From the NCBI RefSeq assembly GCF_900107995.1, contig NZ_FNUM01000006.1:186001-250000 (forward strand): a stretch of DNA of 64,000 bases. Reading direction: 5' to 3'. This document shows positions 34,854-40,685 of this stretch, one piece after another. Made by a program: the position numbers and the translations under genes. Every line of letters begins with the position of its first letter. Position 1 is the first letter of the stretch. Below the pieces are notes generated by a model that made no database searches, had not been told where the DNA came from, and saw only the letters and a list, made by a program, of their open reading frames with translations. This stretch comes from Alcanivorax sp. DSM 26293. GTDB taxonomy: Bacteria; Pseudomonadota; Gammaproteobacteria; Pseudomonadales; Alcanivoracaceae.

Positions 34854-35045
34854 ATCAGGAACAGCCGGGGACGCTTAACGCAGGCCATGCCCGCGATTCA
34901 CGATCCGCAGGTTCGCCATGCAAGCATAGCTCCTACACCTGCCGCATGAGCCATGTTCACAGGGCGAGCCAACCCTGCCGCGCGAAGTGCCGCCTTTCCC
35001 GGCGACGGCCAATCCTTTGTTCACGCCCTTCAACCTGCTCCTTTT

Positions 35046-36842
35046 CTACCCCAACAAAATATCCTGCGACGGCGTCACCCGCATGACCTCTTCAATGGTG
35101 GTCAGACCCTTGGCGACCTTCATGGCACCACTGATGCGCAGGGGCTTCATGCCGTTTTTCAGGGCCTGGCGGGTCAGGGTTTCCAGCTCGGAGCCCCGGG
35201 AAATATGGTTTTTGAGGCTGGTATTCAGAGGCATGGTCTCATAGACCCCCACACGCCCCAGGTAACCGGTATCCCGGCACTCCAGGCAGCCCACCGGGCG
35301 ATAGGTCTTTTCCGGCGGCTTCATCTTGAAGGGGCGAACCAGCTCTTCCCAGGCCTGCACATCGGTTTCCGTTGCCTGCTTGCAATGGGGACACAGGGTA
35401 CGGATCAGACGCTGGGCCATGACCCCAAGCACCGTGGCACTGATCATGTAGGCCGGCACGCCCAGATCCACCAGACGGGTAATGGACGAGGGGGCATCGT
35501 TGGTGTGCAGGGTGGACAACACCAGGTGACCGGTGAGGGCGGCCTGGATGGCCATATCCGCTGTGGCCAGATCGCGGATCTCACCTATCATGATGATATC
35601 CGGGTCCTGACGCAGCATGGCCTTCACCCCCTGGGCAAAGCTCACATCAATATTGGCCTGCACCTGCATCTGATTGAAGCTGGGTTCCACCATTTCGATG
35701 GGATCCTCAATGGTGCAGACATTCACCTCGCTGGTGGCCAATTGCTTGAGGGTGGAATAGAGGGTGGTGGTTTTCCCCGAGCCGGTGGGGCCGGTCACGA
35801 AGATGATGCCGTGGGGATGGGAAGTCATCCGCTGCCAGGCCTGGTAATCCTCATTGGTAAAGCCCATCTGCTCGAAGCTGCGCACCAGCACATCCGGGTC
35901 GAACACCCGCATGACCATTTTTTCCCCGAAGGCGGTGGGCAGCGTGGAAATACGCAGCTCGATCTCTTCCCCCTCCGGTGACTTGGTCTTCAAACGACCG
36001 TCCTGGGGTTTGCGCTTTTCCGCCACATTGAGGCGGCTGAGAATCTTCAGGCGGCTGGTGACCGCCGCCATGATCGCCGCCGGCAGCTCATACACATCGT
36101 GCAGCACGCCATCGATGCGGAAACGCATCTTACCGGTCTCCCGGCGCGGCTCCAGGTGAATATCGCTGGCCCGCTGGGAAAAGGCGTATTGCAGAATCCA
36201 GTCCACAATATTGACGATGTGCTGGTCGTCCGCGTCGTGGTGCCCCTTGCCCACTTCCAGCAACTGCTCGAAGTTGGTAATGCCGGACATTTCCTGGCCG
36301 GTATTGCCGGAGGCCCCGGCGATGGAGCGGCTCAGGTTGTAGAACTCCACCCGGTAGCGGCGCAACTGCTCGGGATTGGCCAGCACCACCTCCAGCTCCC
36401 GGTCACGCAGCACCTGCTTGAGATGGGCCTGCCAGTCGCGCACAAAGGGCTGGTCGCAGGCCACCACCACCTTGTCCCGCTGCACTTCCACCGCCACGAT
36501 GCCGTGACGCTCGGCAAAGGCATAACTCATCACATTGGTCACCTGATCCACATGGACCTTGAGCGGATCAATGTGACACACCGGCATACCCGCCTTTTCC
36601 CCCAGCCAGCGCGTCAGGAAATCCACATCCAGCAGCTGGTGGGTATTGGTCCGGTCGGTGAGCCGATACTTGGCCAGCACCTGAATCGGGTGCCAATTCA
36701 GCTCCTTCTTCTCCCGTGGCGTGGTGGAAATGACGTTGAAGTCTTCCTGGCTGACGCGACCTTCTTCCAGCAACTCACGCATCAGCCAGCGCACATCAAT
36801 CAGCAGACCATCCAGTTTGGCGGGGCGGGCAGTGACGTTCAC
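35046..36842 (-). CDS. GspE/PilB-type secretion ATPase (orphan)
   Basis: 598 aa from GTG 36840-36842, preceded by GGAGAG at five bases; a TTG six codons earlier lacks a site. N-terminal region (about 1-190) resembles MshEN/T2SSE_N; the ATPase core has Walker A GPTGSGKTT, Asp box ASDIHLEPR, Walker B IIMIGEIRD and His box STLHTND. A four-cysteine zinc motif (CPHC ... CLEC) is typical of GspE/PilB. Such ATPases drive pilus or type II secretion assembly, yet no pilin, GspF/PilC or secretin gene is nearby, so its machine is elsewhere. Confidence 0.88.
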   Translation of the reverse strand: MNVTARPAKLDGLLIDVRWLMRELLEEGRVSQEDFNVISTTPREKKELNWHPIQVLAKYRLTDRTNTHQLLDVDFLTRWLGEKAGMPVCHIDPLKVHVDQVTNVMSYAFAERHGIVAVEVQRDKVVVACDQPFVRDWQAHLKQVLRDRELEVVLANPEQLRRYRVEFYNLSRSIAGASGNTGQEMSGITNFEQLLEVGKGHHDADDQHIVNIVDWILQYAFSQRASDIHLEPRRETGKMRFRIDGVLHDVYELPAAIMAAVTSRLKILSRLNVAEKRKPQDGRLKTKSPEGEEIELRISTLPTAFGEKMVMRVFDPDVLVRSFEQMGFTNEDYQAWQRMTSHPHGIIFVTGPTGSGKTTTLYSTLKQLATSEVNVCTIEDPIEMVEPSFNQMQVQANIDVSFAQGVKAMLRQDPDIIMIGEIRDLATADMAIQAALTGHLVLSTLHTNDAPSSITRLVDLGVPAYMISATVLGVMAQRLIRTLCPHCKQATETDVQAWEELVRPFKMKPPEKTYRPVGCLECRDTGYLGRVGVYETMPLNTSLKNHISRGSELETLTRQALKNGMKPLRISGAMKVAKGLTTIEEVMRVTPSQDILLG

Positions 36843-36920
36843 GGATACTCTCCGGGTCAATAGGCGGGCAGAACCGCCTGTCTAATTATTTTGTAGTACT
36901 GTAACGATAACAGGTAAACC

Positions 36921-36949
36921 CTGACAGCCCCGATGGCTTTGACTATACT
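36921..36949 (+). promoter_or_regulatory. Promoter candidate upstream of the DUF47-pit leader
   Basis: CTGACA (36921-36926) and TATACT (36944-36949) with an exact 17-bp spacer. Transcription would start near 36956, about 145 bp before the DUF47 start codon. Confidence 0.55.
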
Positions 36950-36955
36950 CGCGGC

Positions 36956-37076
36956 CAGATTCATGACACATCTGTGACAGTTGCACGACTGTGCCATGAA
37001 CATTCCTTTCCCCATGGGCGACTGCCCGGGAAAGTGGGACACTGATTCTGCCTGAAGCCCCTGCTTCAGGTTTTAC
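36956..37076 (+). ncRNA. Candidate structured leader or small RNA
   Basis: From the predicted start near 36956 to a T-tract at 37071-37074 the RNA would fold almost completely. Hairpin one pairs 36960-36970 with 36990-37000 (one mismatch). Hairpin two pairs CTTTCCC and GGGC (37006-37019) with GCCC and GGGAAAG (37024-37034). Hairpin three, CCTGAAGC/GCTTCAGG (37051-37070), is followed by TTTT like an intrinsic terminator. Either an independent small RNA of about 120 nt or an attenuator-like leader of the phosphate-transport genes. No known RNA family recognised. Confidence 0.4.
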
Positions 37077-37100
37077 TCTGACTCTGGACCCGAGGCGCCT

Positions 37101-37781
37101 ATGTCCTTTGGAAGCTCCATTGCCGGCCTGTTTGGCCGCTCACCGATCAAGCCCCTGCAGCAACACTACGACACCGTTCACGACTGTGCCCGGACCCTGG
37201 CGGACTTCTTCGCCGCCGTGACCGAAGGCGACTGGGACAAGGCACGGGCAGCCCGCAAGCGCATTGCCGAGCTGGAAAACCGGGCCGACGAACTGAAAAA
37301 AGAATTCCGCCTGAACCTGCCCAAAAGCCTGTTTTTGCCCATGCCGCGCACCGACCTGCTCGACCTGATCAGTGTGCAGGACAAGGTCGCCAACAAGGCC
37401 AAGGACATTTCCGGGCTGATGCTCGGCCGGCAGATGACCATTCCCCCCATATTGGCCGATGTGATGCGCGACTATGTGCAGGGCGCCATCGATACCTCCG
37501 CCCAGGCCCAGAAAGCCATCAACGAGCTGGATGAGCTGATCGAGACCGGCTTCAGCGGTCGCGAAATCCAGATCGTGGAAGAGCTCATCGAGGAGCTGGA
37601 CCGCCTGGAGCGCAATAACGACGAGCAGCAAATCACCATTCGCTCCACCCTGTTCAAGCTGGAAAACGAACTGCCCCCGGTGGATGTCATTTTTCTCTAC
37701 AAGATCATCGAATGGGTAGGCGATCTCGCTGATCGCGCCCAGAAAGTGGGCGGCCGCCTGCAGATGTTGGTCGCACGCTAG
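37101..37781 (+). CDS. TIGR00153/DUF47 PhoU-like phosphate transport regulator
   Basis: 226 aa all-helical protein of the DUF47 family, structurally related to PhoU. Landmarks: DWDKARAARKRIAELENRADELKKEFR and the metal-site-like ISVQDKVANKAKDISGLM; C-terminal FLYKIIEWVGDLADRAQKVG. The family nearly always precedes a Pit phosphate permease, as here (10-bp gap), and is thought to regulate it. The 5' leader is long (about 145 nt) and structured. Confidence 0.93.
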   Translation: MSFGSSIAGLFGRSPIKPLQQHYDTVHDCARTLADFFAAVTEGDWDKARAARKRIAELENRADELKKEFRLNLPKSLFLPMPRTDLLDLISVQDKVANKAKDISGLMLGRQMTIPPILADVMRDYVQGAIDTSAQAQKAINELDELIETGFSGREIQIVEELIEELDRLERNNDEQQITIRSTLFKLENELPPVDVIFLYKIIEWVGDLADRAQKVGGRLQMLVAR

Positions 37782-37791
37782 GAGTTGTCTT

Positions 37792-39060
37792 ATGGAGTGG
37801 ATGATTGAACACAGCTACCTGATGCTGTTGCTGGCCGGCGCGTTCGGCTTTCTGATGGCATGGGGTGTGGGCGCCAACGACGTGGCCAACGCCATGGGCA
37901 CCTCGGTGGGCTCCGGAGCCCTGACCGTGAAACAGGCGGTGATGATCGCCATCGTCTTTGAATTCTGCGGCGCCTACCTGGCCGGTGGCGAAGTGACCGC
38001 CACGGTACGAAAAGGCATCGTCGATGCCAGCGTCTTTGCCGAATTCCCCCATTATCTGGTCTACGGGATGATGTCCGCCCTGCTGGCCGCCGGTATCTGG
38101 CTGGTGGTGGCCTCCTGGTTTGGCTGGCCGGTTTCCACCACCCATTCCATTGTCGGCGCCATCGTGGGCTTTGCCGCCGTGGGTGTAGGCATGGATTCGG
38201 TACAGTGGGACAAGGTCGGCAGCATTGTCGCCAGTTGGGTCACCTCACCCCTGCTCGCCGGCTTCATCGCCTTTGCCTTGATCAAGAGCGTGCAGCGCCT
38301 GGTGCTCAACCATGATGACCCATTCGAACGGGCCAAACGGGTGGTGCCCTTCTACATGTTCCTGGTGGGCTTCGCGATCACTGCCGTGACCCTGCTCAAG
38401 GGCCTCAAGCATATCGGCCTGGAAATCAGCTTCGCGGCCAGCCTGGGCTGGGCCGCCGTGGGCGGCGTCATCATTGCCCTGATCGGCGCCATGATTCTCA
38501 GCCGCATCAAGCCCAACCCGCAAGCCGACAAGGAATTTCGTTTTCACTCCGTGGAGCGCATCTTTGCCGTGCTGATGATCTTTACCGCTTGCGCCATGGC
38601 CTTCGCCCACGGCTCCAATGACGTGGCGAACGCGGTGGGCCCGCTGGCAGCCATCAACAGCGTCATCGTCAACGAAGGTGTTATCGGCGGCGAAGCCGCC
38701 ATGCCCAGCTGGATCCTGCTGGTGGGCGCCATGGGTATCGTGTTCGGCCTGGCCATTCTCGGCGCCCGGGTCATGGCTACCGTGGGCAAGAACATCACCG
38801 AGCTGACCCCCAGCCGCGGCTTCGCCGCCGAGCTGGGCGCCGCCGGCACCGTGATCCTGGCCTCCGGCACCGGCCTGCCCATCTCCACCACCCACACCCT
38901 GGTGGGGGCGGTACTGGGCGTGGGCATGGCCCGCGGCATCGGTTCCCTGAACCTGCGGGTGATCGGCACCATCTTCACCTCCTGGGTGGTCACCCTGCCC
39001 GCCGGCGCCCTGCTGTCGATCCTGTTCTTCTACTTCTTCAAGGGCCTGTTCGGCGCCTAA
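37792..39060 (+). CDS. pit: Inorganic phosphate transporter, Pit family
   Basis: 422 aa PHO4-family permease with about ten transmembrane helices and the internal duplication of the family: first repeat GVGANDVANAMGTSVGSG (about 24-41), second repeat HGSNDVANAVGPLAA (about 277-291). PVSTTHSIVGA and PISTTHTLVGA mark the equivalent helices of each half. It takes up metal-phosphate with protons, or Na+ coupled phosphate. Cotranscribed with the DUF47 gene; a strong terminator follows. Confidence 0.95.
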   Translation: MEWMIEHSYLMLLLAGAFGFLMAWGVGANDVANAMGTSVGSGALTVKQAVMIAIVFEFCGAYLAGGEVTATVRKGIVDASVFAEFPHYLVYGMMSALLAAGIWLVVASWFGWPVSTTHSIVGAIVGFAAVGVGMDSVQWDKVGSIVASWVTSPLLAGFIAFALIKSVQRLVLNHDDPFERAKRVVPFYMFLVGFAITAVTLLKGLKHIGLEISFAASLGWAAVGGVIIALIGAMILSRIKPNPQADKEFRFHSVERIFAVLMIFTACAMAFAHGSNDVANAVGPLAAINSVIVNEGVIGGEAAMPSWILLVGAMGIVFGLAILGARVMATVGKNITELTPSRGFAAELGAAGTVILASGTGLPISTTHTLVGAVLGVGMARGIGSLNLRVIGTIFTSWVVTLPAGALLSILFFYFFKGLFGA

Positions 39061-39086
39061 TACCGCCGACCCGCCACGGAGAACAC

Positions 39087-39113
39087 AACGCCGCCTTCGG
39101 GCGGCGTTTTGGT
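39087..39113 (+). terminator. Rho-independent terminator after pit
   Basis: AACGCCGCC pairs with GGCGGCGTT around a TTCGG-type loop, followed by TTTTGGTTT. A strong intrinsic terminator 27 bp after the pit stop. Confidence 0.87.
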
Positions 39114-39130
39114 TTCTGTTGCCATGCCCA

Positions 39131-39273
39131 GCCTGCAAGCAAAAGGATCGAGTGACGAGAAGCGAGTTTCGAGTTGCGAAAACCTTTAAAGCGGGCAGGG
39201 TTTTGCCTTTCGAAACTCGGTACTCGCAACTCGAAACTGGCTGCTTCGTTCGGATGCCCTTTCGCTTGCAGGC
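39131..39273. repeat. Heptad inverted-repeat element nested in a GCCTGCAAGC palindrome
   Basis: The inner part has two arms of exactly five 7-bp units each: 39149-39183 (CGAGTGA, CGAGAAG, CGAGTTT, CGAGTTG, CGAAAAC) and 39206-39240, which reads as the same type on the other strand. The spacer is 22 bp. The outer ends GCCTGCAAGC (39131-39140) and GCTTGCAGGC (39264-39273) are a perfect inverted pair. It occupies nearly all of the 305-bp gap between pit and argA. One of several such elements in the window. Confidence 0.75.
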
Positions 39274-39365
39274 AAGCTCCTCACCCCTCCCCGCCGGCAC
39301 ATCTGGCATCCAACGCCCCCCGCTGGCTATACTGGTCTGTCAGTCATCCATCACCGAGACACGCC

Positions 39366-40685
39366 GTGCCCAGCACCACCCCCGACAATCAGGTCCACTG
39401 GTTCCGCAATTCGTCCCCGTACATCAATGCCCATCGGGGTCGCACCTTTGTGGTGATGCTCTCCGGCGAACTGCTGGACGGCCCGCGCCTGCCCACCCTG
39501 GTTCACGATCTGGCGCTGCTCAACAGCCTCGGCATCAAGCTGGTCCTGGTCCACGGCGCCCGCCCGCAGATCAGCGCGCGGCTGGCGGAATCCGGCATCG
39601 AATCCACCTTTGAGCAACACATGCGGATTACCGACAGCGCGGCGCTCAATGGCGTCATGGCCGCCGTGGGAGCCCTGCGCCTGAAACTGGAAGGGCTGTT
39701 TTCCATGGGGCTGGCCAACTCCCCCATGTACAACGCCGGCATCCGCCTGATCAGCGGCAACTTCGTCATCGCCAAACCGGTGGGCGTGCGCAACGGCTTC
39801 GACTACCAGCACACCGGCGAAGTCCGGCGCATCGAAGTGGATGCCATTCGTCAGCAACTGAGCAATGGCAACGTGGTACTGCTGTCACCGCTGGGCTGCT
39901 CGCCCACCGGCGAACTGTTCAATGTGAACGCGGAAGAGGTGGCCTCCACCGCCGCCATCGCCCTGGGCGCCGACAAGCTGATTCTCATGGGTAACGACCT
40001 GCGGCTCGCCGACAGCAACGGTGACATGGTGCGCGAACTCAGCCCCCAGCAAGCCGGCAAACTGCTTGCCGACGACCAGCTCCAGGACAATGGCGTGGAC
40101 CGGCAGCTCACCGCGGCCTGCCATGCAGCCAGCAATGGCGTGGGTCGCGCCCACCTGATCAACGCCAATGACGACGGCGCCCTGCTCAAGGAACTGTTCA
40201 CCCGCGACGGCTGCGGCACCCTGGTCACCCGGGAAACCTACGAAACCCTGCGCGGCGCACGCATCGACGACGTGGGCGGCATCCTGGAACTGATCGAACC
40301 TCTGGAAGCGGACGGCACCCTGGTGCGCCGCTCCCGGGAACTGCTGGAAAACGAAATCCAGCGCTTTGCCATCATCGAGCGGGACGGCATGGTCATCGCC
40401 TGCGCCGCCCTCTACCCCTTCCCGGACGACAAAACCGGCGAACTGGCCTGCGTGGCCGTACACCCCGGCTACCGCAAGGGCGAACGGGGTGCACAGCTGC
40501 TGGCATACGTGGAACGGCGAGCCAAAGAACAAGGACTCACCAGCCTGTTCGTGCTCACCACCCTGACCGCCCACTGGTTCCAGCAGCAGGGCTTCGAAGC
40601 GGCGGGCGTGGAAGCGCTGCCGGGAGCCCGGAAGTCGCTGTATAACTGGCAGCGGAATTCGAAGGTGTTTGTGAAAAAGTTGTAG
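39366..40685 (+). CDS. argA: Amino-acid N-acetyltransferase (N-acetylglutamate synthase)
   Basis: 439 aa from GTG 39366 (VPSTTPDNQVHWFRNSSPYI); the frame is open further upstream but runs through the repeat element, so it is not coding there. The N-terminal amino-acid-kinase domain (about 20-290) has LVLVHGARPQI and the C-terminal GNAT domain (about 300-439) has ELACVAVHPGYRKGERG. It performs the first committed step of arginine synthesis in the classical ArgA form and is usually inhibited by arginine. Works with argH located 18 kb downstream. No strong ribosome site before the GTG. Confidence 0.94.
   Translation: MPSTTPDNQVHWFRNSSPYINAHRGRTFVVMLSGELLDGPRLPTLVHDLALLNSLGIKLVLVHGARPQISARLAESGIESTFEQHMRITDSAALNGVMAAVGALRLKLEGLFSMGLANSPMYNAGIRLISGNFVIAKPVGVRNGFDYQHTGEVRRIEVDAIRQQLSNGNVVLLSPLGCSPTGELFNVNAEEVASTAAIALGADKLILMGNDLRLADSNGDMVRELSPQQAGKLLADDQLQDNGVDRQLTAACHAASNGVGRAHLINANDDGALLKELFTRDGCGTLVTRETYETLRGARIDDVGGILELIEPLEADGTLVRRSRELLENEIQRFAIIERDGMVIACAALYPFPDDKTGELACVAVHPGYRKGERGAQLLAYVERRAKEQGLTSLFVLTTLTAHWFQQQGFEAAGVEALPGARKSLYNWQRNSKVFVKKL

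Follow-up and report, generated by a model that had tools for sequence, protein, structure and literature searches.

The sequence upstream of the DUF47-pit gene pair in Alcanivorax is probably the promoter-operator and 5′ untranslated region (UTR) of that pair, at which PhoB~P would repress transcription under phosphate starvation and from which a hairpin-bearing leader of the genus would be transcribed. We analysed the locus in a 64-kb stretch of DNA (the window, G000:C12:186001-250000) and in its relatives.

Promoter and predicted PhoB operator of DUF47-pit

The features of the promoter, operator and genes are as follows.

36921 to 36949, plus strand: sigma-70-type promoter CTGACA-17-TATACT of DUF47-pit (scan; hexamers and spacing kept across the genus)
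36956 to 37100, plus strand: predicted 5′ UTR of the DUF47-pit mRNA, its start placed 7 nt past the -10
36963 to 36980, minus strand: PHO box CTGTCAC-AGAT-GTGTCAT, predicted PhoB~P operator at about +8 to +25 (motif, conservation)
37092 to 37095, plus strand: probable Shine-Dalgarno GAGG, inside a conserved GGAYCCGAGGC ahead of the start codon (alignment)
37101 to 37781, plus strand: DUF47/PhoU_div protein, probable Pit accessory protein (PF01865, E 2.6e-57)
37792 to 39060, plus strand: Pit-type phosphate transporter (PF01384 PHO4, E 1.4e-117)

We compared the locus across 17 genomes of the genus, 16 with a readable pit leader and 15 of these leaders distinct (L005 equals L004, and L013 is cut by a contig end), and with 21 other upstreams of the family. 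L005 and L033, whose last 100 nt duplicate those of other upstreams, were dropped from the upstream comparison, and L013, L023 and L120, which carry no TATACT within 200 nt, were left unplaced in it.

Sequence and motif scan place the -35 hexamer CTGACA at 36921-36926 and the -10 hexamer TATACT at 36944-36949, separated by 17 bp. The scan by itself is weak, as it returned three promoter-like sites in 35000-39500 against 1.4 ± 1.1 in shuffled sequence, hardly above chance. We accept the promoter because neither the hexamers nor the 17-bp spacing vary among the 15 distinct genus leaders. This bears out the promoter proposed by an earlier, sequence-only reading of the same DNA; the 25-nt gap that it had placed between its unit and the DUF47 start codon was found as well (the ATG is at 37101).

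Just 3′ of the -10 lies ATGACACATCTGTGACAG, the minus strand of which reads CTGTCAC-AGAT-GTGTCAT, a PHO box made of two 7-bp TGTCA-type direct repeats at 11-bp spacing (36963-36980). The sequence-only reading overlooked this box, which lies beneath the first hairpin of the leader. It is the sole match to TGTCAY-N5-TGTCAY within the window and one of seven in the window's genome, where the backwards pattern used as a control gave three; across the 17 genus genomes the counts were 107 and 18, respectively. The strict pattern occurs at the pit leader in 7 of 17 genus genomes, and TGAC-N7-TGAC is found at one fixed spot past the -10 in 14 of the 15 distinct readable leaders. At or near the same spot it is also seen in 6 of the 21 other family upstreams; nine more have a degenerate copy, by a pattern written after the sequences had been seen, and the other six have neither the strict nor the degenerate form. 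A search of 31,224 nt of upstream DNA on both strands gave 20 strict TGAC-N7-TGAC matches, all of them at the pit-promoter spot. In G015 (L008) both half-sites at the pit leader are altered, with the promoter and a predicted hairpin retained; G015 is the smallest genome of the genus (3.1 Mb). Many DUF47 upstreams of Pseudomonas and Stutzerimonas (L064-L118) show, by eye, a TATACTTGCC -10, several of them with TGACAG-like repeats farther 5′, possibly a PHO box at another position.

PhoB itself (TIGR02154 above its cut-off) was detected in 17 of 17 genus genomes, and in all 17 the same PHO motif stands 5′ of phoB, 10 nt from a TCTAAT -10. In the window's genome a tandem PHO motif also lies immediately 5′ of what is presumably a ppk-like gene (so named from its translation). 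We used phoB and this gene as Pho-regulon controls in place of the E. coli-type PstS model TIGR00975, which was intended for that role and scored above its cut-off in just 1 of 17 genomes; the genus may use another type of PstS. The phoB and ppk-like promoters thus carry the same 11-bp direct-repeat motif as the pit leader of the same genome; their boxes, however, lie upstream of the gene in the forward sense, whereas the pit box points the other way and follows the predicted start. Three consecutive PHO repeats were observed directly ahead of the ppk-like start codon (L185, 932-959), and the other three PHO-type sites of the window's genome are L186-L188. The E. coli PHO-box consensus has an AT-rich spacer. 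The spacer of the pit-leader box is not AT-rich, which counts against a PhoB operator.

The orientation of the box would also suit the divergent neighbour, a type II/IV secretion ATPase with an MshEN domain (35046-36860, with glnE next, by family scan). On this alternative, which we consider improbable, the minus-strand box activates the ATPase gene and its presence in the pit leader is incidental. A minus-strand TATAGT does lie downstream of the box, but at a gap of 15 nt, against the 10 nt (then TCTAAT) seen at the phoB promoters of the genus, which is half a turn off; besides, we would sooner expect pit than a pilus or secretion ATPase among the Pho targets. A stretch with ACTGTAAC, found 5′ of TATACT in many members of the genus, was noticed by eye (36893-36910 here); it is less exact in some family members, and its minus-strand reading, GTTACAGT, possibly serves the divergent ATPase gene as a -10.

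We infer PhoB binding and repression of DUF47-pit from the promoter, the motif and its conservation, all of them properties of the sequence. With the start site estimated from the -10, the box is positioned at or downstream of the start, fit to block the promoter. Since a reversed box at about +8 to +25, under the polymerase, is ill-placed for classical activation of pit, repression by PhoB~P is the natural reading. When phosphate is plentiful, sigma-70 RNA polymerase would initiate at about 36956 and the low-affinity Pit would be produced. Under starvation, PhoB~P would occupy the minus-strand PHO box, within the footprint of the initiating polymerase, and would stop initiation or escape, so that Pit would fall as the high-affinity Pho regulon rises. 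The control of phosphate uptake suggested by the sequence-only reading is then probably right, though the best-supported switch is the predicted PhoB operator in the DNA.

In S. meliloti, orfA precedes pit and repression of the pair is reportedly exerted by PhoB. The orfA-pit pair is starvation-repressed and has a PHO box just 5′ of the putative translation start, according to a passage of PMC3131613 (citing Bardin et al.), and pit1 is counted among the most repressed S. meliloti genes under phosphate stress in a part of PMC8829014. The two systems share the pair of accessory-protein and Pit genes, a box near the translation start and a low-affinity system expected to go down. They differ in that the start site and start codon of Alcanivorax are separated by a leader of 106-148 nt with a covarying hairpin, and in that repression, reported in S. 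meliloti, is predicted from sequence here. The likely core, a PhoB operator on a low-affinity phosphate transporter, is ordinary in kind, and Alcanivorax would add the structured leader. Marine growth of oil degraders can be phosphate-limited. If the prediction is true, PHO-box starvation repression of DUF47-pit of the S. meliloti type extends to a family of marine oil degraders.

Portions of the literature point both ways. A section of PMC10294691 presents PhoB as a dual regulator, activating or repressing according to where its site lies; this is the same source in which E. coli pitB is judged an unlikely PhoB target and most intragenic PhoB sites in E. coli appear non-functional, two statements that count against our reading. 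So does the difference in Pit control among species noted in an excerpt of PMC4415409. A part of PMC10055408 calls PitA a housekeeping transporter and makes no mention of PHO boxes at pit.

The predicted long leader and its first two hairpins

The distance from the predicted start to the ATG is 106-148 nt in the 15 distinct genus leaders, versus 32-40 nt in the 21 other family upstreams. Among the family upstreams compared, the predicted long leader is thus genus-specific, seen in Alcanivorax alone. The three hairpins proposed for it by the sequence-only reading are present (about 36960-37000, 37004-37037 and 37050-37071), and TTTTACTC follows the third. The features of its first part are these.

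36960 to 37000, plus strand: hairpin 1 of the leader RNA, with its 5′ arm over the PHO box (folding; compensatory changes in relatives)
37004 to 37037, plus strand: hairpin 2 of the leader RNA (folding)
37034 to 37039, plus strand: conserved RTGGGA motif, after hairpin 2 (RTGGG in 15 of 15 and RTGGGA in 14 of 15 distinct genus leaders)

For the 124-nt RNA, 2 of 200 shuffled versions gave as good a fold (z -2.73). Over the 15 leaders the mean fold z is -1.47, and 6 of the 15 fold better than shuffles at p < 0.05.

In hairpin 1 the outer arm tracks the conserved TGAC, and the inner pairs cross a variable spacer and change on both sides. The leaders whose hairpin 1 aligns gapless are L012, L014, L015 and L016. 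In this set, 4 of 10 pairs show two-sided changes (16 of 500 shuffles had as many), 85% of cells pair (matched by 6 of 500 shuffles), and the covariation score is 0.450 compared with 0.181 in shuffled alignments (2 of 500 as high), with every slid register lower, on four rows only. When L009 was added, giving five leaders in one common register that was picked from their folds, their own arms beat all other 119 permutations.

The fairest of the pairing tests is the arm swap with free register on all 15 leaders, which gave p 0.0011, with the own partner coming first in just 4 of the 15 rows and, for L006 and L007, 14th of 15; its nine-leader version omitted L002, L003, L004, L007, L008 and L011. 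With the register chosen per sequence, a choice that favours own pairs, p was about 0.0001 for 10 of the 15 leaders (L006, L007, L008, L011 and L017 omitted, and in its seven-leader part also L002, L003 and L004). Hairpin 1 does not fit 4 of the 15 leaders: at the site, folding predicts a different hairpin in L006, L007 and L008 and a pairing with sequence farther down in L017. RNAalifold of the window's own subgroup (L001-L004 and L009) returned an unfavourable covariation term of +2.52. Hairpin 1 is too divergent between leaders for a covariance model, and 15 distinct leaders hardly allow a proper covariation test. Taken with this partial covariation, the sequences lead us to hold, with moderate confidence, that hairpin 1 is a real structure of the 5′ UTR.

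What hairpin 1 does we infer from its place: once transcribed, the operator and some 20 nt beyond it would form a 5′-proximal hairpin, which most likely sets mRNA stability or translation. E. coli ompA mRNA has a 5′-proximal stabilizing stem-loop. The likeness lies in a hairpin near the 5′ end whose shape is kept more than its sequence; unlike that of ompA, the Alcanivorax 5′ arm doubles as a predicted DNA operator.

Judged from the upstreams compared, operator and long leader are separable, because a strict or degenerate box is found in 15 of the 21 other family upstreams, where the long leader is missing, and the half-sites of L008 are changed yet a hairpin is still predicted there. Family boxes lacking the long leader and the lost box of G015 are cases in which the two layers may have separated during evolution. 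We also thought of an Alcanivorax-specific two-layer switch, in which the same 40 bp would be bound by PhoB as DNA and would fold, once transcribed, into a regulatory hairpin, so that phosphate uptake would be controlled at initiation and again at the mRNA, with RTGGGA as a protein or RNA target; we regard it as a rather unlikely elaboration. If the predicted operator is real, the locus offers a natural comparison between operators that are followed by a structured RNA leader and operators that lack one, with the caution that an RNA hairpin at a promoter can partly be the shadow of a DNA operator.

Hairpin 2 is unproven. It shows no two-sided changes in four rows; RNAalifold of six rows gave two-sided changes in three pairs, on a gapped alignment. 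Base-pair changes among orthologous leaders, the evidence that the sequence-only reading had proposed to look for, accordingly appear as compensatory changes in hairpin 1 and are without clear support in hairpin 2. Pairing between the leader and the translation start (CAUAGGCG with CGCCUAUG) was considered and rejected, as it did not exceed that of shuffled sequence (the mean z of the 15 leaders was -0.24, and one of them fell below p 0.05). It is very improbable, in our estimate, that the leader is a riboswitch-like RNA sensing a ligand or metal and governing translation of DUF47. Such an RNA would accommodate the covariation of hairpin 1, the presence of RTGGGA in nearly all leaders and the conserved region right before the start codon; against it stand hairpin 2 without covariation in the four rows, the lack of pairing to the start region above shuffles, the restriction of the long leader to one genus and the free variation of the sequence between a few conserved blocks, which we would not expect of an aptamer. 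No Rfam family reached its gathering threshold in the leader (the only hit to do so in the window was a tRNA located elsewhere), and a permissive Rfam scan gave one match, at chance level.

The two short frames that the sequence-only reading had put forward as possible leader peptides exist, except that the second opens at 36996 instead of 36997, and the first (36933) starts before the point at which transcription is predicted to begin. The second frame encodes 19 aa and has a similar 20-aa frame in L002, but it is shifted in L004, has reached no stop by the DUF47 start in L003 and L009, has no counterpart in other leaders and is preceded by no Shine-Dalgarno that we could see by eye. Conservation of leader peptides among the genus leaders was thus not borne out, and we give almost no credence to control of the operon through these frames.

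The terminator-like hairpin

37050 to 37074, plus strand: terminator-like hairpin followed by TTTT, in a subclade only (scan, folding, alignment)

The final hairpin with TTTT described by the sequence-only reading is present. In full it reads GCCTGAAGC-CCCT-GCTTCAGGT-TTTAC (37050-37076), and it includes 25 nt that are absent from L003 and L009. The stem is perfect over 8-9 bp (-11.7 to -12.2 kcal/mol) and four T's in a row follow it; the U-tract, TTTTACTC, is short and weak. Terminator-like sites are a common class here, 11 having been found in 35000-39500 against 3.6 ± 2.1 in shuffles.

The hairpin occurs in L001, L002 and L004 (which equals L005), that is, in 3 of 15 distinct leaders and 4 of 16 readable genomes, and its stem is retained in all three despite a changed loop in L004. 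No strong upstream rival for its 5′ arm was found, the best reaching -5.3 to -6.7 kcal/mol against the -11.7 to -12.2 kcal/mol of the terminator; this antiterminator test covered only pairing of the terminator 5′ arm with the upstream leader. On a DNA tree of DUF47-pit (19 rows) the hairpin needs three changes, at least two of them by well-supported branches, and the tree does not tell gain from loss. The same tree separates L006 from L007 despite their near-identical leaders, which may reflect recombination or a fault of the tree.

These observations bear on the main proposal of the sequence-only reading, conditional termination or a free small RNA (about 118 nt) ending at about 37074, so that part of the transcripts would be stopped and would act elsewhere or respond to a signal. 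The perfect stem with TTTT, its retention in L001, L002 and L004 although the loop of L004 changed, and the better-than-shuffled fold of the whole unit are all as this proposal would have them. But the hairpin is absent from 12 of 15 distinct genus leaders, including that of the close relative L003, and the 32-40 nt leaders of the 21 other family upstreams are too short to contain it; the weak U-tract, the lack of a strong upstream competitor and the lack of an Rfam match at the gathering threshold further argue against it, and we consider this reading quite unlikely. As a general feature, a small RNA or attenuator was rejected, the terminator that either requires being confined to those 4 of 16 readable genus genomes and having no strong rival pairing. 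Because it is restricted to 3 of 15 distinct leaders, the hairpin is not the conserved function, although there may be some termination in the window's subclade, where the extra hairpin may trim read-through. An attenuator or small RNA is possible for that subclade only. Some transcription attenuators place an intrinsic terminator ahead of a transporter gene. The leader of the window's subclade resembles them in its terminator-like hairpin and differs in that in Alcanivorax no antiterminator was found and the hairpin is not conserved in the genus.

Further copies of the leader and the surrounding DNA

A DNA search for copies of the leader in the 17 genus genomes (E <= 0.001) returned, besides pit leaders, nothing but a second contig of G010, which may belong to a related strain in the same assembly; the search matched 6 of the 17 genomes only and missed even orthologous leaders in the rest, so that diverged copies could escape it. 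The leader had no match in the plasmid collection. Among the literature matches listed there was no paper on a DUF47-pit leader in Alcanivorax, and the main text of PMC9788540, on dieselolei small RNAs, has no word starting with phosphate, pit, DUF47 or Pho. A strong terminator-like hairpin, AACGCCGCCTTCGGGCGGCGTT, lies 3′ of pit at 39087-39108. Farther beyond pit, at 39150-39245, inverted repeats, GAGTTTCGAGTTGCG ... CGCAACTCGAAACT, were noticed by eye and resemble an intergenic repeat element.
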